Part shown: positions 13,610 through 63,562 of the stretch, piece by piece
Layout: each line of letters begins with the position of its first letter
How positions within the stretch are numbered: the stretch's first letter is position 1
Origin: Promicromonospora umidemergens
GTDB taxonomy: Bacteria > Actinomycetota > Actinomycetes > Actinomycetales > Cellulomonadaceae
DNA: 64,000 nt
Assembly (NCBI RefSeq): GCF_024171995.1
Contig: NZ_JAMTCT010000001.1
Span: forward strand, 372,001-436,000
Direction of reading: 5' to 3'
Notes under the pieces: generated by a model
Told to the model about the DNA's origin: nothing
Database searches by the model: none
Seen by the model: only the letters and a program-made list of their open reading frames with translations
Program-made: the position numbers and the translations under genes

Positions 13610-13772
13610 TCGCAGCAACAAGCCGCGGGAGGATCTTACTGCCTCGGGCAGGGAACGCGGGTCTCCCCACGCGCTCGTGGGCACGCGGACGGTGCCGAAA
13701 TCTCCTGGCGCCCGCTCGCCGTCGGCCCATAGGTTCTGCGAGCCATCCCCCCAGAAGAACTGGAGCACTCCC

Positions 13773-15011
13773 ATGTCCTCGAACTTCCCGGTCGCACTGT
13801 CGGGCGCCCGGGCCCGGACCCTCATGTGGGCGCACGAGCACGATGTCGACCACGCCGCACTGAACCAGCTCCGCAACATCTCTGCCCTGCCATGGGTCGA
13901 AGGTGTGCGCGTGATGCCTGACGTCCATCTCGGCAAGGGCGCGACCGTCGGCTCCGTGATCGCCATGCGCGACGCCGTGTCCCCGAACGCCGTGGGTGTC
14001 GACATCGGCTGCGGCATGATCGGCGTCCGCACCTCGCTGACCGCTGCCGACCTGCCGGACGACCTCTCGCGTCTCCGGGCGCGCATCGAGGCCGCTATCC
14101 CCGTCGGGTTCCACTCGCACGGTGAGCCGGTCGACCTGCGCAGCCTGCGGCCCGTGAAGGGCTCGGGAGGTCAGGAGCGGCTGCGGGGCGAGCAGGCGTT
14201 CTGGGACCGGTTCGAGACGCTGAACCCGAAGGTCCGGCAGCTCGAGACGCGTGCGCGCAAGCAGCTTGGTTCGCTAGGCGGAGGCAACCACTTTGTAGAG
14301 CTATGTCTGGATTCGACCGATCAGGTCTGGCTTCAGCTCCACTCCGGCTCCCGCAACATCGGCAAGGAGCTCGCAGAGCACCACGTCGGCATCGCGAAGC
14401 GCCTCGAGCACAACGTGGGTCTCGTGGACCGCGAGCTCGCCGTGTTCCTCGCCGGCACGCCCGAGATGGACGCGTACCTCAACGACCTCTGGTGGGCGCA
14501 GGAGTACGCGGCCAGGTCGCGTGCGGTCATGATGGCCCTGACCGTCCAGGCGGTCCGTGATGAGTTCGCGGCGATGTCCGACGGCGGCCGCGTGCTCACC
14601 TTCGACGAGGGCGTGAACGTGCACCACAACTACGTGGCGCGCGAGCAGATCGACGGCCAAGAGCTGATCGTCACCCGCAAGGGCGCTATCCGGGCGGGCA
14701 AGGGAGATCTCGGCCTCATACCGGGGTCGATGGGCACGGGCTCGTACGTGGTGCGCGGCCTGGGCAACCCGGAGTCGTACTGGTCGGCGTCGCACGGCGC
14801 CGGACGGCGGATGTCCCGGACCCGAGCCAAGCAGGAGTTCACGGTCGAGGACCTCGCCGTCCAGACCGAGGGCGTCGAGTGCCGCAAGGACCGGGGAGTG
14901 CTCGACGAGATCCCCGGCGCCTACAAGGACCTCGACGCCGTGATCGCGGCGCAGTCCGACCTCGTGGAGGTCGTCGCCCGCCTGCGGACGGTGCTCTGCG
15001 TCAAGGGCTGA
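13773..15011 (+). CDS. rtcB: RtcB-family RNA ligase
   Basis: 412 aa. Motifs in order: VRVMPDVHLGKGATVGSVI, the Mn-binding GVDIGCGMIGVRT (Cys), GSLGGGNHFVEL, HNYVAREQ, GLIPGSMGTGSYVVRG, and the guanylylation-site WSASHGAGRRMSRT with its catalytic His. RtcB joins 2',3'-cyclic phosphate or 3'-phosphate ends to 5'-OH ends using GTP and Mn, in RNA repair. Family members in actinobacteria are often this slightly shorter ~400-residue form. ATG 13773 follows CTGGAG and starts right at the conserved N-terminus; the frame is open upstream but overlaps the leader. No rtcA or Rtc regulator is adjacent. Confidence 0.93.
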   Translation: MSSNFPVALSGARARTLMWAHEHDVDHAALNQLRNISALPWVEGVRVMPDVHLGKGATVGSVIAMRDAVSPNAVGVDIGCGMIGVRTSLTAADLPDDLSRLRARIEAAIPVGFHSHGEPVDLRSLRPVKGSGGQERLRGEQAFWDRFETLNPKVRQLETRARKQLGSLGGGNHFVELCLDSTDQVWLQLHSGSRNIGKELAEHHVGIAKRLEHNVGLVDRELAVFLAGTPEMDAYLNDLWWAQEYAARSRAVMMALTVQAVRDEFAAMSDGGRVLTFDEGVNVHHNYVAREQIDGQELIVTRKGAIRAGKGDLGLIPGSMGTGSYVVRGLGNPESYWSASHGAGRRMSRTRAKQEFTVEDLAVQTEGVECRKDRGVLDEIPGAYKDLDAVIAAQSDLVEVVARLRTVLCVKG

Positions 15012-15034
15012 GCCCTGCCGGGCTGCGGGGTGCC

Positions 15035-15089
15035 CTACCCAGGGATTCGGCCCGAAATCCCGAAGATTTCGGGCCGAATCCCTGGGTAG
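15035..15089. terminator. Perfect 25-bp hairpin between rtcB and the DUF3145 gene
   Basis: A 25-bp perfect inverted repeat (15035-15059 and 15065-15089) with a 5-base loop lies between converging genes and should terminate both. Its right arm is part of a tandem repeat (see 15071-15147). Cores read CCCAGGGATTCGG and CCGAATCCCTGGG. Confidence 0.85.
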
Positions 15090-15147
15090 CGGGAGACTCC
15101 GGCCGGCGACCGGGCCGAATCCCTGGGTAGCGGGAGGCTCCAGCCGG
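15071..15147. repeat. Two tandem copies of a 36-bp unit at 41-bp spacing
   Basis: The unit beginning GGGCCGAATCCCTGGGTAGC at 15071 recurs at 15112, differing at two purine positions. Together with the left hairpin arm this gives three copies of the GGGCCGAATCCCTGGGTAG core, two direct and one inverted. Confidence 0.8.
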
Positions 15148-15148
15148 C

Positions 15149-15646
15149 TCAGCCCACCTGGTGCAGCCAGCGCACCGGAGCACCGAGACCGGCGTACCGG
15201 AACGGCTCCAGCTCGTCGTCCCAGGCGGCGCCCAGAGCGAGGTCGAGCGCGTCCCGCATGGCACGCGGGTCGGCGAGCTCCAGGGCGGCACGGACGCGAT
15301 CCTCCTGCACCACCATGTTGCCGTGCACGTCGGTCATGGCGTGGAAGATGCCGAGGTCGGGGGTGTGCGACCAGCGGGCGCCGTCGGCCCCGTTGCTCGC
15401 GTCCTCGGTCACCTCGTACCGCAGGTGCGCCCAGCCCCGCAGAGCTGACGCCAGCTTGGCGCCCGTGCCCTGCGCACCCTGCCACGAGTACTCGGCGCGG
15501 TACAGCCCGCGCCCCGCGGGCTGCGCGGTCCAGTCCATGGATACGCGCACGCCAAGAACGTTCCCCGCTGCCCACTCGATGTGGGGGCACAGGGCACGAG
15601 GCGCCGAATGCACAAAAAGCACACCCCGCGTGATGACACCGGCCAT
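15149..15646 (-). CDS. DUF3145 family protein
   Basis: 165 aa. The start GVITRGVLFVHSAPRALCPHIEWA and the later YRAEYSWQGAQGTGAKLASAL, LRYEVTEDAS and GRYxHTPDLGIFHA-like section (RWSHTPDLGIFHAM) are the DUF3145 signature of actinobacteria. It is a cytoplasmic protein of unknown function, usually a single core-like gene. ATG 15646 is preceded by GGGAGGAAG. The region upstream to the def stop (278 bp) holds its promoter. Confidence 0.88.
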   Translation of the reverse strand: MAGVITRGVLFVHSAPRALCPHIEWAAGNVLGVRVSMDWTAQPAGRGLYRAEYSWQGAQGTGAKLASALRGWAHLRYEVTEDASNGADGARWSHTPDLGIFHAMTDVHGNMVVQEDRVRAALELADPRAMRDALDLALGAAWDDELEPFRYAGLGAPVRWLHQVG

Positions 15647-56726: not shown

Positions 56727-56826
56727 GGGGCCAGCGTACTCGAATAAAGAGGCAGTTCATGCTTTTTAAGCCGCCACAGCAAGGCGGTGGCAGGCCCTTG
56801 TGCGGTCGGGCGATCTGCGGCACACT

Positions 56827-56864
56827 CAGTGTCGACGGGATTGTTGACATTGTTGTTGACACTG
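56827..56864. promoter_or_regulatory. Inverted repeat at the catabolic operon promoter
   Basis: CAGTGTCGAC (56827-56836) and GTTGACACTG (56855-56864) are inverted copies with one mismatch, centred between the -35-like TTGACA elements (TTGTTGACA at 56841 and 56853). The right arm lies 15 bp before the operon start at 56879. A GntR-family repressor gene ends the cluster and is the obvious candidate. Confidence 0.6.
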
Positions 56865-56878
56865 AAAGGCGGCCGCAG

Positions 56879-57673
56879 ATGTCCGTATGCGTGGCAGTGC
56901 TCGGGCTCGGCGAAGCCGGCTCCGAGATAGCGAGAGACCTCGTCGACGCCGGGGTCGTCGTCCAGGGCTACGACCCGGTCCGGCCGGCGCCCTCGGGCGT
57001 CCAGGTCCGGCCCAGCGAGGCGGCCGCCGTCGCAGGCGCTCAGCTCGTGCTGAGCGTCAACAGCGCGGCCGACGCAGCGGTCGCGCTCCGCAACGGCGCA
57101 CCGGCCGCGCACCGCGCGGTCTGGGCCGACCTCAACACCGGGGACGCCCGCCTCAAGCGCGACCTCGCCGCGGCGCTCGCCGCGACGTCGCGCACCTCCG
57201 TCTTCGCCGACGTCGCCCTGATGAGCCCCGTGCCCGGCAGCGGGCTGCGTACCCCCATGCTCGCCAGCGGCCCTGGTGCCCGGCGCCTCGCTGAGGCCCT
57301 CACCCCGCTCGGTGCCGGCATCACGATCGTCGACGGCGGCCCCGGCGAGGCCGCCACGCGCAAGCTGCTGCGCAGCGTGTTCTTCAAGGGCCTCGCCGCG
57401 GCGGTCGTCGAGGCGCTGGCCGCCGCGAAGGTGGCCGGACTCGAGCCCTGGCTGCGCGACAACATCGGTGACGAGCTCGCCCGCGCCGACCGGACGACCG
57501 TCGAGCGGCTGGTCTCCGGGTCGGCCGAGCACGCCGTCCGCAGGTCCCACGAGATGGCCGCGGCGGCCGAGCTGCTGACCGACCTCGGCGTCGAGCCCCG
57601 CATCGCCCGCGCGAGCCACGACCTCCTGGTCGAGCTCGCGCATCCCACCCACGCGAAGGAGCAGACCGTATGA
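56879..57673 (+). CDS. NAD(P)-dependent oxidoreductase with DUF1932 domain
   Basis: 264 aa from the ATG at 56879. The N-terminal Rossmann motif VAVLGLGEAGSEIARDLVDAGV fits a 6-phosphogluconate/3-hydroxyisobutyrate-dehydrogenase-like fold; the C-terminal part (about 180-250) matches the DUF1932 helical domain (RKLLRSVFFKGLAAAVVEALAAAKVAGLEPWLRDNIGDEL) and carries the invariant Lys of this superfamily. It may oxidise a hydroxy acid or a lactol to a lactone. It starts a unit whose next gene overlaps by 4 bp. The frame upstream, to 56759, does not cover conserved sequence. Confidence 0.83.
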   Translation: MSVCVAVLGLGEAGSEIARDLVDAGVVVQGYDPVRPAPSGVQVRPSEAAAVAGAQLVLSVNSAADAAVALRNGAPAAHRAVWADLNTGDARLKRDLAAALAATSRTSVFADVALMSPVPGSGLRTPMLASGPGARRLAEALTPLGAGITIVDGGPGEAATRKLLRSVFFKGLAAAVVEALAAAKVAGLEPWLRDNIGDELARADRTTVERLVSGSAEHAVRRSHEMAAAAELLTDLGVEPRIARASHDLLVELAHPTHAKEQTV

Positions 57674-58659
57674 CTGACGGCCACACCCACCCGGAAGCGC
57701 ACCCCGTCCCGTCGGCACGGGCCCGCGAGCTCGTCCGGGGCGCCTACGACACGCACGTGCACGTCGCGCCCGACGTGATGAAGCGGCGCGTCGACGACCT
57801 CGAGCTCGCCCAGCGGTTCGTCGACGTCGGCCAGGCCGGCTTCGTCCTCAAGTCCCACTACGTGCCGACGGCGGAGCGCGCCGAGAACGTGCGCAAGGTG
57901 GTGCCGGGCGCCGACGTCCTCGGCGCCATCACGCTCAACGCCTCCGTCGGCGGGCTCAACCCCGTGGCGGTCGAGATCGCGGCCCGGCAGGGCGCACGCG
58001 TCGTGTGGCTGCCCACCGTCGACTGCACCAACCAGCGCGAGAGCCGCGCCAAGGCGCCTGCGGGCGCCGTCCCGCCCATGTGGGCCCAGATCCAGGACGA
58101 CCTCGCGGAGCGCGGCATCATGGCCCCGGCGATCCCCGTCGTCGACGACGACGGGCCGGTGCAGGCCCTGCGCGACGTGCTCGACCTGATCGCGGAGCAC
58201 GACCTGGTGCTCGCGACCGGCCACCTGTCCGGCTCCGAGATCCTCCAGGTCGTGCGCGCGGCCGCCGAGGCGGGCGTGCGGCGCATGGTGGTGACGCACC
58301 CCGAGTTCACCTCGCAGCGGGTGCCCGTCGACGCGCAGCGCGAGCTCGCCGAGCACGGCGCCCTCATGGAGCGGTGCTTCACGACGCCGCACAGCGGCAA
58401 GGTCTCCTGGGAGCAGTTCTACGACCACGTGCGCCGGGTAGGGCCCGAGCACTCGGTCCTGTCCAGCGACCTGGGGCAGCCGTTCAACCCGCCGGTCGAG
58501 GACGGGCTGGCGCTGCTCGCGGACGGCTTCCTCGCCAACGGGTTCTCCGAGGAGGACGTCCACACGATGGCGGTCGTCAACTCGCGCAGGCTCGCCGTCG
58601 TCACCGAGCCCTCCGGTGCCGAGCCCGTCCCGGCCGACGCCGAAGGGGTGCGCGCATGA
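57670..58659 (+). CDS. DUF6282-family amidohydrolase-like protein
   Basis: 329 aa. AYDTHVHVAPDVMKRRVDDLELA has the HxH metal pair (His29, His31); later LKSHYVPTAERA, LATGHLSGSE, VVTHPEFTSQRV and LSSDLGQPFNPPVEDGLAL supply His/Asp ligands in the order of the amidohydrolase TIM barrel. The precise DUF6282 role is unknown; the superfamily includes lactonases such as LigI. ATG at 57670 overlaps the previous stop. In this operon it may hydrolyse a lactone or a related ester to give the hydratase substrate. Confidence 0.78.
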   Translation: MTDGHTHPEAHPVPSARARELVRGAYDTHVHVAPDVMKRRVDDLELAQRFVDVGQAGFVLKSHYVPTAERAENVRKVVPGADVLGAITLNASVGGLNPVAVEIAARQGARVVWLPTVDCTNQRESRAKAPAGAVPPMWAQIQDDLAERGIMAPAIPVVDDDGPVQALRDVLDLIAEHDLVLATGHLSGSEILQVVRAAAEAGVRRMVVTHPEFTSQRVPVDAQRELAEHGALMERCFTTPHSGKVSWEQFYDHVRRVGPEHSVLSSDLGQPFNPPVEDGLALLADGFLANGFSEEDVHTMAVVNSRRLAVVTEPSGAEPVPADAEGVRA

Positions 58660-59372
58660 GCGGCCGCCGGCTCCTGGTCGTCGGAGCGCACAGCGCCGAC
58701 TTCGTCTGGCGGGCCTCAGGGGTGATCGCCAAGAACTCCGCCGCCGGTGGCACGTCCGTCGTCGTCGCTCTCTCGTACGGCGAGCGCGGCGAGTCCGGGG
58801 AGCTCTGGAAGGAGGAGGGGCAGACCGAGGAGAAGGTCAAGGCGGTGCGGCACAAGGAGGCCGAGTCCGCGGCGGCCGCCGTCGGCGCGGAGCTGGTCGC
58901 GTTCGACCTCGGCGACTACCCGCTGCGTGTGGGACCCGACGCCGTGGACCGCCTCGCGGGCCTGATGCGCGACTTCGCGCCCCACGTCGTGCTCACCCAC
59001 CCCGACAAGGACCCCTTCAACCCCGACCACCCCGTGGCCTACGCCGCCGCGGCGCAGGCGCGGCTGCTGACCTCTGGCGCCGGCGTCGAGTCCGGCTTCC
59101 GGACGGCGCCGCCCACCGAGCTCCTCGTGTTCGAGCCGCACCAGCCCGAGCTGTGCGGGTTCGTGCCCAGCGTCTTCGTCGACATCACCCCCGTCATGGA
59201 CCGCAAGTCGGAGGCCATGTCCGCGATGGCGGCGCAGAGCTATCTGCGCGAGTACTACACCGAGCGCGCCGGTCACCGCGGCAACCATGCCCGCAAGGTG
59301 ACGGGCAACAAGGCGATCCGCCAGGCCGAGGCGTTCCAGCGCCTGGTCCCGAACGTCGTGGAGGCACTGTGA
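58656..59372 (+). CDS. galB: GalB-like 4-oxalomesaconate hydratase (PIG-L fold)
   Basis: 238 aa. VVGAHSADFVWRASGVIA, LSYGERGESGELWKEE, FDLGDYPLRV, THPDKDPFNPDHPVAY and LLVFEPHQPELCGF match, as far as I recall, the PIG-L-fold hydratase GalB of Pseudomonas putida gallate catabolism. That enzyme hydrates 4-oxalomesaconate to 4-carboxy-4-hydroxy-2-oxoadipate at a zinc site. Here zinc ligands would be His12, Asp15 and a later His. Identity of function rests on motif match. The ATG overlaps the previous stop (ATGA). Confidence 0.72.
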   Translation: MSGRRLLVVGAHSADFVWRASGVIAKNSAAGGTSVVVALSYGERGESGELWKEEGQTEEKVKAVRHKEAESAAAAVGAELVAFDLGDYPLRVGPDAVDRLAGLMRDFAPHVVLTHPDKDPFNPDHPVAYAAAAQARLLTSGAGVESGFRTAPPTELLVFEPHQPELCGFVPSVFVDITPVMDRKSEAMSAMAAQSYLREYYTERAGHRGNHARKVTGNKAIRQAEAFQRLVPNVVEAL

Positions 59373-60073
59373 GCGCGGACCTGAGCACGAACCTGAGCAC
59401 GGCCCAGGGCACGGACGCGAGCGCCGGCCTCGGCGCGATCTGCCACGAGCTCGCCGGCGCCGGGGTCGCCACCGTGTACGAGGCAGCGGGCCGGCGGGGG
59501 ATGGTCGACGTCGAGCTGCAGCAGCTCGTGCCCGGCACCCGCGTCGCCGGTCCCGCCCGGGTCGTGGCCTGCGCGCAGGACGACAACTTCGCGGTGCACC
59601 GGGCGATCTCGGTGCTCGAGCCCGGTGAGGTGCTCGTCCTGGCCATGCCCGAGCCCCGGCCCGTCGGGCTCGTCGGTGACCTGCTCGTCACCCAGGCGAA
59701 GGTGCACGGCGCCGCCGCCGTGCTGGTCGACGCCGCCGTGCGCGACGTGGACGACGTCCGTGAGCTCGGCCTGCCCGTGTGGACCCGGTGGGTGCGTGTC
59801 CGCGGCGCGCGCCGCACCGATCCGGGTGAGCTCGATGTCCCCGTGGAGATCGGTGGGCAGTCGGTCCGGCCGGGCGACGTCGTCGTGCTGGACCGGGACG
59901 GCGCCGTCGTCGTGCCGCAGGAGGACCTGGCGGACGTGCTGGCGGCGACCCGCGCGCGGCTGGCCCGCGAGGCGGGCATGCGTGAACGGCTCCTCGCGGG
60001 CGAGCTCAGCTACGACATCCACGGACTGCGTGACACAGACCGGCAGGACGACACAGAGAGGAACCGGAGATGA
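59369..60073 (+). CDS. RraA-like aldolase, probable 4-carboxy-4-hydroxy-2-oxoadipate aldolase
   Basis: 234 aa from a GTG at 59369 overlapping the previous stop. The class II HMG/CHA aldolase pattern is present: MVDVELQQLVPGTRVAGPAR, VGLVGDLLVTQAKVHGAA (Gly-Asp), VLVDAAVRDVDDVRELGLPVW (Arg-Asp) and RPGDVVVLDRDGAVVVPQE. The family also has RNase E inhibitors (RraA) and oxaloacetate decarboxylases. Placement directly after a GalB-like hydratase favours the aldolase that yields pyruvate and oxaloacetate. The first ~20 residues repeat DLSTNLST, probably not conserved. Confidence 0.75.
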   Translation: MSADLSTNLSTAQGTDASAGLGAICHELAGAGVATVYEAAGRRGMVDVELQQLVPGTRVAGPARVVACAQDDNFAVHRAISVLEPGEVLVLAMPEPRPVGLVGDLLVTQAKVHGAAAVLVDAAVRDVDDVRELGLPVWTRWVRVRGARRTDPGELDVPVEIGGQSVRPGDVVVLDRDGAVVVPQEDLADVLAATRARLAREAGMRERLLAGELSYDIHGLRDTDRQDDTERNRR

Positions 60074-60879
60074 GTGCCTCCACCATCGTGCACCCGGCAG
60101 GCCAGGGGACCGACGCCGACGGCGTGCTGGAGGTCCGTGACCTCGCCAAGCACTTCCCCAAGGGCGACCAGGACCTGGTGGCGCTGCGCGAGTTCAGCAT
60201 CACCGTGCGGCCGGGCCAGTTCCTCGTGCTCCTGGGCCGCAGCGGCTGCGGCAAGTCCACGCTGCTGAACCTGATGGCCGGCCTCACCCGGCCGACGTCG
60301 GGCCAGATCCTCTACCGGGGCACCGCGCTGAGCGGGCCTAGCACCGAGATCGGCTACCTGACCCAGCACGACACGCTCATGCCGTGGCGGGACGTCACCC
60401 GCAACGTCGAGATGCCGCGCGAGCTGCGCGGCGAGGGCAAGCGGTCGCGGCGCGAGGAGGCGCAGCGGCTGATCGAGCTGGTCGGCCTCGGGGGCTTCGA
60501 GCACCACTTCCCGCGGGAGCTGTCGGGCGGTATGCGACGGCGGGCGAGCCTGGCCCGGATGCTCGCCGCCGACCCGGAGACCCTGCTCCTCGACGAGCCG
60601 TTCGGCGCGCTCGACGCCCAGCTACGGACCGAGCTGCAGGGCGAGCTGCTGCGGCTGTGGCAGGGGACCGGTCGCACCGTCGTCTTCGTCACCCACGACA
60701 TCGAGGAGGCGCTGCTGCTCGCCGACCGCGTGGTGGTGCTGGGCCCCGTCGGGTCGGTGCTGCTCGACGTAGACGTCGACCTGCAGCGCCCGCGCGATCC
60801 CGACGAGGTGCGGGTCGATCCCCGGTTCGTCGCCCTGCACAAGAGCCTGTCCGTCGCACTGAAGGAGGGCGCCCGATGA
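60070..60879 (+). CDS. ABC importer ATP-binding protein, SsuB/TauB/NrtD type
   Basis: 269 aa. Walker A LLGRSGCGKSTLLNL, Q-loop YLTQHDTLMPWR, signature LSGGMRRRASLARML, Walker B TLLLDEPFGALDAQL and H-loop FVTHDIEEAL are complete. The Asp-Glu-Pro-Phe Walker B and LMPWR form belong to the nitrate/sulfonate/taurine class. It energises uptake with the permease and binding lipoprotein that follow. Starts overlapping (ATGA) with the aldolase gene. Confidence 0.9.
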   Translation: MSASTIVHPAGQGTDADGVLEVRDLAKHFPKGDQDLVALREFSITVRPGQFLVLLGRSGCGKSTLLNLMAGLTRPTSGQILYRGTALSGPSTEIGYLTQHDTLMPWRDVTRNVEMPRELRGEGKRSRREEAQRLIELVGLGGFEHHFPRELSGGMRRRASLARMLAADPETLLLDEPFGALDAQLRTELQGELLRLWQGTGRTVVFVTHDIEEALLLADRVVVLGPVGSVLLDVDVDLQRPRDPDEVRVDPRFVALHKSLSVALKEGAR

Positions 60880-61730
60880 GCGCCGCGACCACCACCGACG
60901 CCGGAACCGCGGGACCGGGATCCGCCGGACCGCTCCAGGTGCGGACCGCTCGTGGCTTCCGCGAGAAGCACGGCCGCAGGGCGACCGTCTGGGCGTGGCG
61001 GGCCGGCCTCCTGGTGGCGCTGGTCGCCGTCTGGCAGGTCCTGTCCGGTCCGGTGCTCGACCCGCAGTACGTGAGCTCGCCGCAGGGCATCTGGGAGCGG
61101 CTCGCCGGCTGGATCGCCGACGGCACGCTGTGGACCAACACGTGGATCACCATCCAGGAGATCGTGCTCGGGTTCCTGCTCGGCGCCGGAGCCGGCGCGG
61201 TCCTGGCCTACCTGATCGCGCCGATCCGGGTGGTCTGGACCATCCTCGACCCCTACGTCATGGCGCTGTACGCGATCCCGAAGGTCGCCCTCGCGCCGTT
61301 GTTCATCGTCTGGTTCGGCATCGGCACCGACATGAAGGTGCTGCTCGCGGCCGTGTCGGTGTTCTTCCTGGTCTTCATCAACACCGCCGCCGGCGTCCAC
61401 CAGGTCGACTCGGCGCTCGTCGACGCGGTGCGGCTGATGAACGGCAGCCGGCGCGACGTCGCGCTCAAGGTGGTGCTGCCCGCGTCCATGACGGGGCTGC
61501 TCACCGGGCTGCGGGTGTCGATCCCGTACGCGCTGATCGGCGCCGTCATCGGGGAGCTGGTCGCGTCCAACCGCGGCCTCGGGTTCCTCATCAGCGACTC
61601 GTCCGCGAAGTTCGACACCGACGGGGTGTTCGCGACGCTGCTGGTCCTCTCGGTCATCGCCATGGTCCTCAACGGTCTGGTGGGCCTCATCGACGCCCGC
61701 ACGAGCCGGTGGAAGCCGCTCGACACCTGA
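60876..61730 (+). CDS. ABC importer permease, SsuC/TauC type
   Basis: 284 aa with about six transmembrane helices. The binding-protein-dependent permease motif is the EAA-like loop LMNGSRRDVALKVVLPASMTGLLTGLRVSI, followed by PYALIGAVIGELVASNRGLGFLI. The Gly and position match transporters of the nitrate/taurine/thiamine-precursor family. The ATG at 60876 overlaps the ATPase stop. It forms a homodimer channel for the substrate bound by the lipoprotein. Confidence 0.9.
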   Translation: MSAATTTDAGTAGPGSAGPLQVRTARGFREKHGRRATVWAWRAGLLVALVAVWQVLSGPVLDPQYVSSPQGIWERLAGWIADGTLWTNTWITIQEIVLGFLLGAGAGAVLAYLIAPIRVVWTILDPYVMALYAIPKVALAPLFIVWFGIGTDMKVLLAAVSVFFLVFINTAAGVHQVDSALVDAVRLMNGSRRDVALKVVLPASMTGLLTGLRVSIPYALIGAVIGELVASNRGLGFLISDSSAKFDTDGVFATLLVLSVIAMVLNGLVGLIDARTSRWKPLDT

Positions 61731-61774
61731 CCGTGTCCTGTCCGTCCAGCTGTGCCAGCTCAAGGAGGAGCTCC

Positions 61775-62842
61775 GTGAACCCGCAACGCACCACCCCCGC
61801 CCGAATGGCAGGCGCCGCCGCCCTCGTCGCGATCAGCCTGGTCGCCGCCGCAGGCTGCGCCAACAAAGGAACCAGCGAGCCCGCCACGGGCGCCGATGCC
61901 ATGACCCTGAACGTGGGGCAGATCAGCGACTCGGTGGCCTTCTTCCCGATCTTCGTCGCCGAGGACCAGGGTTTCTTCGAGGACGAAGGGCTCACCCTCG
62001 CCGAGCGGCCGCGCCTCGGGACCGGCGCCAAGCTGGCCGCGGCCCTTGAGTCGGACAGCATCGACATCGCCGGCGGCGTCATGACCGACGCCTACAACCT
62101 CTACCAGATCAACGACGGCGCCCGCGTCATCGGATCCCTCGTCAACGAGTACTACGTCGACGTCATCGCCGGTGCCGGCATCCCGGAATCGCTCGACGAC
62201 GGGCCGCTCGAGGAGAAGGTCGCCGCGCTGGAGGGCAAGGCCATCGGCATCACCGGACCGGGCAGCGGCACCGAGGCCCTGGTCTCCTACCTGCTGGCAC
62301 AGCAGGGCCTCGACACGGCCACCGACGTCACGCTCGTCAACCTGGGAGCCGACCCGTCGGCCGCGATCGGGGCGCTCAAGGCCGGACGGGTCGACGCCCT
62401 GTCGTTCTTCCAGCCGGTCGGTGAGCAGGCCGAGGCCACCGGCGTCGGCCGCATCTTCATCTCGCCCGCTCGCGGCGACGTGCCCGAGCTGGCGGACGCC
62501 GTGCACGGCGCGCTGTTCACCACCCAGGAGGTGATGGACCACAAGCCAGAGGCGACCGCGGCGTTCGTGCGGGGTATCGCCCGTGCCGAGGAGCTCATCA
62601 GCTCCGACGACGCCGCCGCGGCCGAGCTGCTGCAGAAGTACCAGTCGACCATGGACGCCGAGACGATCAAGCTCCTGGCCCCCGTGCTGCAGGACGCGAT
62701 CGCGGACACCCCGGTGCCCGCCGAGAGCGGGTACGAGACGTCCGCCGCCTTCCACCAGGAGAGTGGGCTGATCCCCGACCCGCCGGCCTTCGCCGACCTG
62801 GTGCCCTCAGCGTGGATCGAGTCCGCGCTGCAGGACGAATAG
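61775..62842 (+). CDS. ABC importer substrate-binding lipoprotein, NMT1/SsuA-like
   Basis: 355 aa from a GTG at 61775 with AAGGAGGAG upstream. A lipoprotein signal with lipobox VAAAGC precedes a periplasmic-binding fold: LNVGQISDSVAFFPIFVAEDQGFFEDEGLTL, IAGGVMTDAYNLYQIND, GIPESLDD, GITGPGSGTEALVSYLL and GRVDALSFFQPVGEQAE. This is the NMT1/THI5/SsuA group that carries aromatic, sulfonate or pyrimidine-type anions; the bound ligand is not given by the sequence. It ends 72 bp before the GntR gene. Confidence 0.87.
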   Translation: MNPQRTTPARMAGAAALVAISLVAAAGCANKGTSEPATGADAMTLNVGQISDSVAFFPIFVAEDQGFFEDEGLTLAERPRLGTGAKLAAALESDSIDIAGGVMTDAYNLYQINDGARVIGSLVNEYYVDVIAGAGIPESLDDGPLEEKVAALEGKAIGITGPGSGTEALVSYLLAQQGLDTATDVTLVNLGADPSAAIGALKAGRVDALSFFQPVGEQAEATGVGRIFISPARGDVPELADAVHGALFTTQEVMDHKPEATAAFVRGIARAEELISSDDAAAAELLQKYQSTMDAETIKLLAPVLQDAIADTPVPAESGYETSAAFHQESGLIPDPPAFADLVPSAWIESALQDE

Positions 62843-62914
62843 GGCACTCATGCTGGAAGAATCCCCTTCAGAACGTGGAGCCGGACGCCGACTGCTGGAC
62901 GGAGACCTTCGAAC

Positions 62915-63562
62915 ATGGCTGTGGACGCGGACATCAGGGCGCTGATCCTCGAGGGCGAGCTGGTACCAGGGCAGCGCCTCATCGAGTCGGAGCTCGTCGA
63001 GCGGTTCGCGGCCTCCCGGGCCGCCGTACGTGACGCGTTCGGCCGGCTCGAGGGGGAAGGCCTCGTCGAACGGGTGCAGAACCGCGGGGCCCGCGTACGC
63101 GTCATCCCGTTCGACGAGGCGATCGAGATCACCGAGGTCCGGCGGGCGCTGGAGTCGCTGTGCGCGGGCAAGGCCGCCGAGCACGTCACCGACGCGGAGA
63201 TCGCCGAGCTCCGTGGCGTCGCCGGGCAGATGGACGCCGCCGCGACGAGCGGCGACGTCGGCGAGTACGCGATGCTGAACCGCCGCCTGCACGCCCGCAT
63301 CCATGAGATCAGCGGTCAGCGCACCGCCCGGACCCTGATCGTCCGGCTCCGTGGCCAGCTCGTGCGGCACCAGTACCGGCTCGCGATGAAGCCGGGCCGG
63401 CCCGCCAAGTCGGTCAAGGAGCACATGGCGATCGTCGAGGCGATCTGCGGGCGCGACCGCGGGGCCGCCGAGGCGGCGATGGCCGCCCACATCGACAGCG
63501 TGCTCGAGGCGATGCGGGAGACCAACCGCACGGCGACGGAGGGGGCGGCCGCGGCGTCGTGA
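62915..63562 (+). CDS. GntR/FCD-family transcriptional regulator
   Basis: 215 aa. The N-terminal winged HTH (VPGQRLIESELVERFAASRAAVRDAFGRLEGEGLVERVQNRGARV) is followed by the all-helical FCD effector domain, with metal-site residues in MLNRRLHARIHEISGQ and AMKPGRPAKSVKEHMAIVEAI. FCD repressors bind the pathway's carboxylate intermediates. It follows the operon and probably controls it through the inverted repeat at 56827-56864. The ATG at 62915 begins the HTH with a rather short lead; no in-frame earlier start was seen. Confidence 0.88.
   Translation: MAVDADIRALILEGELVPGQRLIESELVERFAASRAAVRDAFGRLEGEGLVERVQNRGARVRVIPFDEAIEITEVRRALESLCAGKAAEHVTDAEIAELRGVAGQMDAAATSGDVGEYAMLNRRLHARIHEISGQRTARTLIVRLRGQLVRHQYRLAMKPGRPAKSVKEHMAIVEAICGRDRGAAEAAMAAHIDSVLEAMRETNRTATEGAAAAS

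Follow-up and report, generated by a model that had tools for sequence, protein, structure and literature searches.

An operon of Promicromonospora umidemergens that may import and degrade 2-pyrone-4,6-dicarboxylate

What does a bacterium feed into the last enzymes of an aromatic-acid pathway when no gene for opening the ring lies beside them? This question is raised by an eight-gene operon within 64,000 nucleotides of DNA from the actinobacterium Promicromonospora umidemergens (contig NZ_JAMTCT010000001.1, positions 372,001 to 436,000; this whole stretch is called the window). An initial annotation had recognised a DUF1932 dehydrogenase, a DUF6282 amidohydrolase-like protein, a GalB-like hydratase, an RraA-like aldolase, an SsuABC-type importer and a GntR regulator, and the Pfam search bears out these family assignments. 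As it had also stated, no ring-cleavage gene is present among the eight; a second amidohydrolase or dehydrogenase gene is likewise absent from them.

From the gene content of this and related loci, we consider it slightly more probable than not that the operon is a GntR-controlled unit for the uptake and breakdown of an acid whose ring is already open; 2-pyrone-4,6-dicarboxylate (PDC) is the likeliest candidate. The importer would bring PDC into the cell, and the DUF6282 protein would hydrolyse its lactone to 4-oxalomesaconate (OMA), which is LigI's reaction performed without detectable sequence similarity to LigI. The GalB-like enzyme would then hydrate OMA to 4-carboxy-4-hydroxy-2-oxoadipate (CHA), and the RraA-like enzyme would cleave CHA into pyruvate and oxaloacetate. 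Lastly, the DUF1932 protein would oxidise the lactol precursor of PDC, as LigC does; this step is the least certain and would let the unit use the precursor as well.

PDC occurs naturally in leaves and is in demand as a monomer for polyesters. An excerpt of PMC9415522 puts its content at 1-1.7% in dry strawberry leaf and, with reference to Wilkes and Glasl 2001, at 0.1-2% across the Rosoideae genera listed there. We also advance a tentative suggestion, for which perhaps a little less can be said than against it: this could be the first recognised operon dedicated to the import of PDC and its use as a nutrient (e.g. from Rosoideae leaf litter), DUF6282 could be a new family of PDC hydrolases, and dioxygenase-bearing relatives could carry out protocatechuate 4,5-cleavage with a dioxygenase, a dehydrogenase and a hydrolase outside the LigAB, LigC and LigI families. 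Among the matches listed from the open-licence literature on OMA, PDC and extradiol enzymes, no description of such an operon was found; nothing was found there on DUF6282, and the matches listed for DUF1932 were unrelated work. If true, a transport-linked operon for PDC breakdown would name a new hydrolase family, give DUF1932 dehydrogenases a possible role and account for soil actinobacteria that feed the OMA route without known ring-cleavage genes. Furthermore, the importer and the GntR regulator might serve as a PDC sensor or for PDC control in production strains.

The 4-oxalomesaconate end of the operon

The GalB-like protein matches the solved OMA hydratase GalB (5cgz) over its full length (203.6 bits, E 3e-59, residues 6-237), the sole other solved chain among the matches listed scoring 25.7 bits; PF02585 is matched at 72.5 bits (cut-off 28.2). 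The NCBIfam models of PIG-L deacetylases (MshB, Mca and BshB) give 20.9-54.2 bits, all under cut-off. Together with the 5cgz match, these scores make it unlikely that this PIG-L enzyme is a deacetylase, an outcome that the annotation had named as fatal to its proposal. The RraA-like protein reaches 117.2 bits to PF03737 (cut-off 24.5) and 141.5 bits to 3noj, a solved aldolase of the 4-hydroxy-4-methyl-2-oxoglutarate (HMG)/CHA type. Its R125 and D126 align with R123 and D124 of this Pseudomonas putida F1 enzyme; R40, N71 and R195 are also retained and T145 is Ala (counted on the same alignment). In the characterised aldolase Arg-123 is critical and Asp-124 binds metal, according to an excerpt of PMC5065237. 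The NCBIfam model TIGR02798 gives 156.7 bits (cut-off 304.5). Strong homology thus points to CHA cleavage by the RraA-like enzyme and, joined by the replacement evidence below, to OMA hydration by the GalB-like one.

Gene neighbourhoods were compared in loci fetched by DUF6282. An alignment of seven operon-type DUF6282 proteins was searched against one genome per species; the best 80 of the 189 relatives that it yielded were retained. The seven queries had been chosen for having GalB and RraA alongside, so that counts over the 80 loci are biased towards that clade. The loci span 10 kb per side, less at contig ends; genes were called by a codon-usage script and labelled by bit-score thresholds. 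Many carrier genomes are drafts, and kin genomes are not independent, so that the Fisher values given here overstate certainty.

GalB occurs in 34 of the 80 loci and LigJ in 10, and no locus has both. These are unrelated families for one step, GalB being of the PIG-L and LigJ of the Amidohydro_2 type. The LigJ of Nocardiopsis (L065) scores 520 bits to 2gwg, an OMA hydratase of solved structure, and its neighbour lies over the NCBIfam cut-off for the OMA tautomerase GalD (NF033377, 463.6 versus 440). The nine other LigJ loci were labelled by similarity to the L065 protein, and LigJ loci mostly carry GalD too. A figure legend in PMC12314914 gives LigJ and GalB as KCH hydratases (the legend's abbreviation), LigU and GalD as OMA tautomerases and LigI as PDC hydrolase. 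RraA is found in 42 of the 44 hydratase-bearing loci (it is missing in L073 and L121) and in none of the 36 hydratase-less ones (Fisher 1e-20). When 35 genomes of these 36 loci were searched (that of L058 was left out), 15 had GalB only, 17 strong LigJ only (at least 445 bits), two had both and one had neither (Fisher 6e-7); the GalB match in G453 consists of two partial pieces, three LigJ matches contain one internal stop, and the genome with neither, G458, holds just a 227-bit LigJ-like match.

The bias from query choice does not affect a sample of 396 genomes from the phylum, to which the window's genome also belongs. With at most seven first-look candidates scored per genome, GalB was present in all nine genomes having this DUF6282 clade and in 8 of the 387 others (Fisher 4e-14); six of the nine belong to one family. 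The grouping of these genes is not due to chance, and the co-occurrence of DUF6282, GalB or LigJ, and RraA in the 80 loci contradicts a further outcome that would have spoken against the annotation, namely that the neighbouring genes are never co-conserved. Because clusters that are otherwise alike carry either GalB or the unrelated LigJ, and RraA follows the hydratase, the operon would work through OMA, as had been proposed. Hydratase replacement, RraA tracking and the genome sample form the strongest evidence for this conclusion, which we regard as well supported. Two broader claims were dropped: DUF6282 in general is not a marker of the pathway, the association holding for the clade near the window's protein only, and a clean split of GalB into subfamilies by GalD partnership is not claimed, as some operons with a GalB about 47% identical to the window's contain GalD and others do not.

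DUF6282, the importer and the substrate

The DUF6282 protein matches PF19799 at 223.7 bits (cut-off 26.8). It resembles LigI in its proposed reaction and in an amidohydrolase-type barrel. It differs in that the Pfam search finds no Amidohydro_2 match, the type to which we take LigI to belong, and in that no solved chain is matched by sequence better than E 0.22. The AlphaFold2 model (predicted local distance difference test score 92.7) retrieves the amidohydrolase superfamily with Foldseek, including dipeptidases, dihydroorotase and the Geobacillus lactonase GkaP, at template-modelling scores to the query of 0.39-0.58 among the 50 matches listed. Across 55 sequences, distant ones included, K61, H63, H185, H210 and D267 are invariant, and H29 and H31 are at least 90% conserved. 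By our reading of the model, these residues lie at the barrel positions expected for a predicted metal site. Model and alignment together give a metal-hydrolase-type barrel with HxH, His, His and Asp.

Which substrate such a protein would open is suggested by genomes that lack the dehydrogenase. A PF09130 (DUF1932) gene is missing from 9 of 79 carrier genomes (G399, G404, G407, G409, G419, G428, G435, G445 and G448), the search covering the window's genome and the genomes of 79 of the 80 loci, two of which share one (L058 was left out). GalB is present in all nine, and in eight of their loci importer genes adjoin DUF6282 (the exception is L121). In six of them (L056, L064, L068, L073, L092 and L111) the only recognised pathway genes are those of the importer, DUF6282 and GalB, plus RraA in five; some of these six also have a GntR gene. 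Because nine genomes have DUF6282 and GalB without DUF1932, the substrate would lie one hydrolysis from OMA, i.e. it would be PDC. On this comparative evidence, DUF6282 would likely be a PDC hydrolase in place of LigI. The earlier assignment of this role to DUF6282 is favoured by context (the transporters, the hydrolase-type barrel and the nine genomes).

A transporter of one of three recognised kinds, two with binding proteins and one of the major facilitator superfamily (MFS), accompanies DUF6282 in 66 of the 80 loci. The window's ATP-binding cassette (ABC) importer is built like TauABC, SsuABC and NrtABC, with an ATPase, a permease and an NMT1-type binding protein. Unlike these, its permease and binding protein fall below every named NCBIfam cut-off, and so does the ATPase for the 25 of 187 models listed; the taurine ATPase model gives 218.6 bits (cut-off 357). 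The binding protein scores 81.6 bits to PF13379, 59.8 bits to PF09084 and 73.7 bits to PDB 3qsl, and its N-terminus resembles a lipoprotein signal. No recurrent extra enzyme that would reveal the substrate emerged among the identified gene clusters shared by importer loci, which are the named genes, the second binding-protein kind, GalD, LigJ and the MFS transporter; several clusters shared by at most nine loci were not identified. A 586-residue product of L079 and L099, considered as such an enzyme, proved to be another permease of the ABC type.

The window's genome (6.6 Mb, 65 contigs, estimated completeness 100%) contains neither a PF02900 gene (LigB-type dioxygenase) nor a PF04303 gene (PrpF family, GalD-type tautomerase). 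It also has no close relative of the dioxygenases linked to related operons, taking 49% identity as the lower limit; further ring-opening families were not searched. Its sole Amidohydro_2 gene over cut-off was rejected as a LigI, its closest solved match being 4dlf (149 bits). The sole catechol-dioxygenase-type match, at 30% identity, is HpaD, which was rejected as a source of ring cleavage: it is over the HpaD cut-off and lies in an hpaE-D-H-I-like row, where HpaE and HpaH likewise exceed their cut-offs and the HpaI-like gene does not. The absence of LigB-type and closely linked dioxygenase genes speaks for entry without known ring cleavage, and the importer plausibly takes up a pre-opened substrate, as the annotation had suggested. 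Also encoded in the hpa region is a protein that combines a fumarylacetoacetate-hydrolase part with one resembling RraA (L146:5542-7092, window genome C8).

According to a published figure legend, protocatechuate 4,5-cleavage is encoded by LigABCIUJK in Sphingobium, pmd in Comamonas and pca/pcm in Pseudarthrobacter and Arthrobacter. The proposed route resembles this pathway in that the inferred intermediates are identical from PDC on, the CHA aldolase is homologous and homologues of LigJ and GalD/LigU occur in sister loci. In contrast, the eight genes lack LigAB, LigI and LigC, DUF6282 and DUF1932 stand in the places of the latter two, and an SsuABC-type importer lies within the operon. With the gallate pathway of Pseudomonas putida (GalABCD) the operon shares GalB- and GalC-like enzymes, whereas the window's genome has neither a LigB-family dioxygenase nor a PrpF-family GalD.

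DUF1932, dioxygenase-bearing relatives and competing explanations

The DUF1932 protein scores 49.5 bits to PF09130 (cut-off 25), 21.8 bits to NAD_binding_2 and 96 bits to PDB 3qsg; in one of the other searches, the DUF1932 query (P0001) carried one extra residue before the start. The family occurs in 37 of the 80 loci, 34 of them with a hydratase alongside. The only dehydrogenase among the eight genes, to which the search for LigC was confined, is of this type and not of the LigC type, which is presumably Gfo/Idh.

Sixteen operons with a catechol-2,3-dioxygenase-type gene bear on its role. Nine combine that gene with DUF6282, DUF1932, GalB and RraA, four have GalD, three have neither and none has DUF6282 with GalD. 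The nine come from six genomes of one actinobacterial family (f19), one further genome, Nonomuraea solani and Thermus oshimai; we take the f19 genomes for relatives of Rubrobacter. Two of the four GalD operons (L150 and L164) have a DUF1932 gene nearby, though not within the operon itself. Operons with DUF6282 and DUF1932 fit protocatechuate because a dehydrogenase and a lactonase are needed there, and those with GalD fit gallate because a tautomerase is needed; the split is as expected if the first kind opens protocatechuate and the second gallate. On plasmid pTHEOS01 of T. oshimai (L157:5102-9768), genes for a dioxygenase, GntR, DUF6282, PIG-L, aldolase and DUF1932 form one row, near which lie branched-chain-type importers and a 4-hydroxybenzoate 3-monooxygenase, an enzyme that produces protocatechuate. 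In T. oshimai and the f19 genomes, the same enzymes together with the dioxygenase seem to make up an entire protocatechuate 4,5-cleavage route from other families. A lactol dehydrogenase in place of LigC is thus a plausible role for DUF1932, as the annotation had proposed, and the weakest step of the route: the nine-to-four split favours it, whereas distant DUF1932 genes inside gallate clusters weaken it.

Two side observations concern the dioxygenases. The four GalD operons (L147, L150, L151 and L164) have no DUF6282, and three of them carry GalB and RraA; they are candidates for a gallate pathway in which a type I (vicinal oxygen chelate, VOC) dioxygenase replaces GalA/DesB. The NCBIfam model for catechol 2,3-dioxygenase places the linked enzyme of L120 (8990-9934) over its cut-off and that of L061 (6823-7794) below it, and in this context the name is probably wrong for both.

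Several observations weigh against the proposed PDC unit. The RraA-like protein falls slightly short of the NCBIfam CHA aldolase cut-off (NF006731, 175.3 bits versus 179). DUF1932, GalB, LigJ, GalD, RraA, dioxygenase and TcuA are all absent from 33 of the 80 loci, a recognised transporter is absent from 14, and 13 genomes of the phylum with above-cut-off DUF6282 of other clades gave no GalB match among at most seven candidates each. PF02900 genes occur in 28 of the 53 carrier genomes searched for dioxygenases, a set made up of nine genomes plus the genomes behind 45 of the 80 loci, mostly picked for having a hydratase. Among the other 25, eight have a relative of a linked dioxygenase at 49% identity or more. 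DUF1932 raises its own difficulties. In Pantoea and Klebsiella, genes of about 30% identity stand last in galB-aldolase-tautomerase operons, whose pathway does not require a LigC step, and in Nonomuraea DUF1932 adjoins a cluster of the GalD type. Import of PDC would leave DUF1932 without an evident function, although the gene is retained in the window.

An alternative that we hold to be unlikely, while taking it seriously, keeps OMA as the end of the route and changes what is imported. Another di- or tricarboxylate, e.g. a hydroxy acid or a lactone, would enter the cell; DUF6282 would open or rearrange it, and DUF1932 would oxidise the hydroxy acid to OMA or an isomer. DUF1932 does belong to a hydroxyacid-dehydrogenase-like superfamily and is mostly accompanied by a hydratase (34 of 37 loci). 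In P. oryzihabitans, its gene is paired with a dicarboxylate symporter near a gal cluster, and two DUF6282-importer loci carry genes resembling the tricarballylate dehydrogenase TcuA/TcuB along with a thiamine pyrophosphate (TPP) enzyme. However, 9 of the 79 carrier genomes do without any DUF1932, and the dioxygenase-type operons with DUF6282 and DUF1932 fit PDC chemistry directly.

The importer and dioxygenase genes that share one operon in Nonomuraea solani (L120) would suit a different account, in which an aromatic acid such as protocatechuate is taken up, its ring is opened by an unrecognised dioxygenase encoded elsewhere, and DUF1932 and DUF6282 act as LigC and LigI. We find this improbable, as 17 of the 53 carriers, the window's genome included, have neither PF02900 nor a close relative of a linked dioxygenase; other ring-opening families were not searched. 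A role for DUF6282 as a substitute for GalD, i.e. as an OMA tautomerase or isomerase and not a lactonase, would account for the mutual exclusion of the two in dioxygenase operons (9 versus 4 of 16) and for the lack of a PrpF-family gene in the window's genome. It is nevertheless very improbable: 10 of the 80 loci contain both DUF6282 and GalD, the predicted fold is a metal-hydrolase-type barrel, and some loci have DUF6282 and the importer without any other pathway gene. Finally, a set of ordinary, unrelated genes with a PIG-L deacetylase, a regulator-like RraA and no OMA route is hardly credible: MshB, Mca and BshB do belong to the PIG-L family but match only weakly and under cut-off, GalB itself is matched far better at 204 bits, and LigJ replaces GalB in related loci.

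Gene order, putative operator and Streptomyces relatives

The operon (Table 1) occupies 56879-63562 of the window. The annotation had counted seven genes although it listed eight, and eight is the correct number; the single direction and the overlaps that it reported are borne out, with 4 bp shared at five of the seven junctions (57670-57673, 58656-58659, 59369-59372, 60070-60073 and 60876-60879). Gaps of 44 bp and 72 bp separate the binding protein gene from those of the permease and the regulator, respectively. The nearest loci are L045 (Myceligenerans) and L046 (Promicromonospora), whose DUF6282 proteins align at 93% and 92% identity.

Table 1. Features of the operon and its upstream region (positions in the window)
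Feature	Position	Strand	Evidence
Putative operator, imperfect inverted repeat TCAGTGTCGAC/GTTGACACTGA	56826..56865		two TTGTTGACA copies inside (56841, 56853), directly upstream of the first gene
DUF1932/6-phosphogluconate-dehydrogenase-like NAD(P) dehydrogenase, 264 amino acids	56879..57673	+	PF09130, NAD_binding_2, PDB 3qsg
DUF6282 amidohydrolase-fold protein, 329 amino acids	57670..58659	+	PF19799, AlphaFold2 model, Foldseek
GalB-like OMA hydratase, PIG-L family, 238 amino acids	58656..59372	+	PF02585, 5cgz
RraA-like aldolase (HMG/CHA type)	59369..60073	+	PF03737, 3noj, NF006731
ABC importer ATPase, TauB/SsuB/NrtD type	60070..60879	+	ABC_tran; NCBIfam taurine ATPase model below cut-off
ABC importer permease, SsuC/TauC type	60876..61730	+	PF00528 (BPD_transp_1) 89.7 bits
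Importer substrate-binding protein, NMT1/SsuA type, GTG start	61775..62842	+	PF13379, PF09084, PDB 3qsl
GntR/FCD regulator	62915..63562	+	PF07729 99.8 bits, PF00392 56.6 bits

The inverted repeat with its paired TTGTTGACA is a candidate operator for the GntR regulator, the two copies lying 38 and 26 bases upstream of the DUF1932 gene. Among 16 loci tried, a paired TTGTYGACA lies upstream of DUF1932 at similar distances in L045 and L046. A single TTGTTGACA precedes DUF1932 or DUF6282 in L072, L116, L120 and L122, looser matches occur in L103 and L115, and the other eight of the 16 have no such match upstream.

Some Streptomyces loci extend the gene row further. In L112 (13585-17585) and L123 (13603-17591), the row of DUF6282 and importer genes is followed by genes resembling TcuA and TcuB and by one for a TPP-dependent enzyme. 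In a third such locus, L102, the TPP enzyme is present (13632-15236) but TcuA/TcuB are not recognised, and in L034, from a further genome, a related TPP gene stands beside DUF1932; in all four loci this enzyme is acetolactate-synthase-like. Decarboxylation of OMA at its oxo-acid end, followed by oxidation, would on paper give aconitate. The TcuA/TcuB and TPP genes may thus form a second outlet from OMA towards aconitate.

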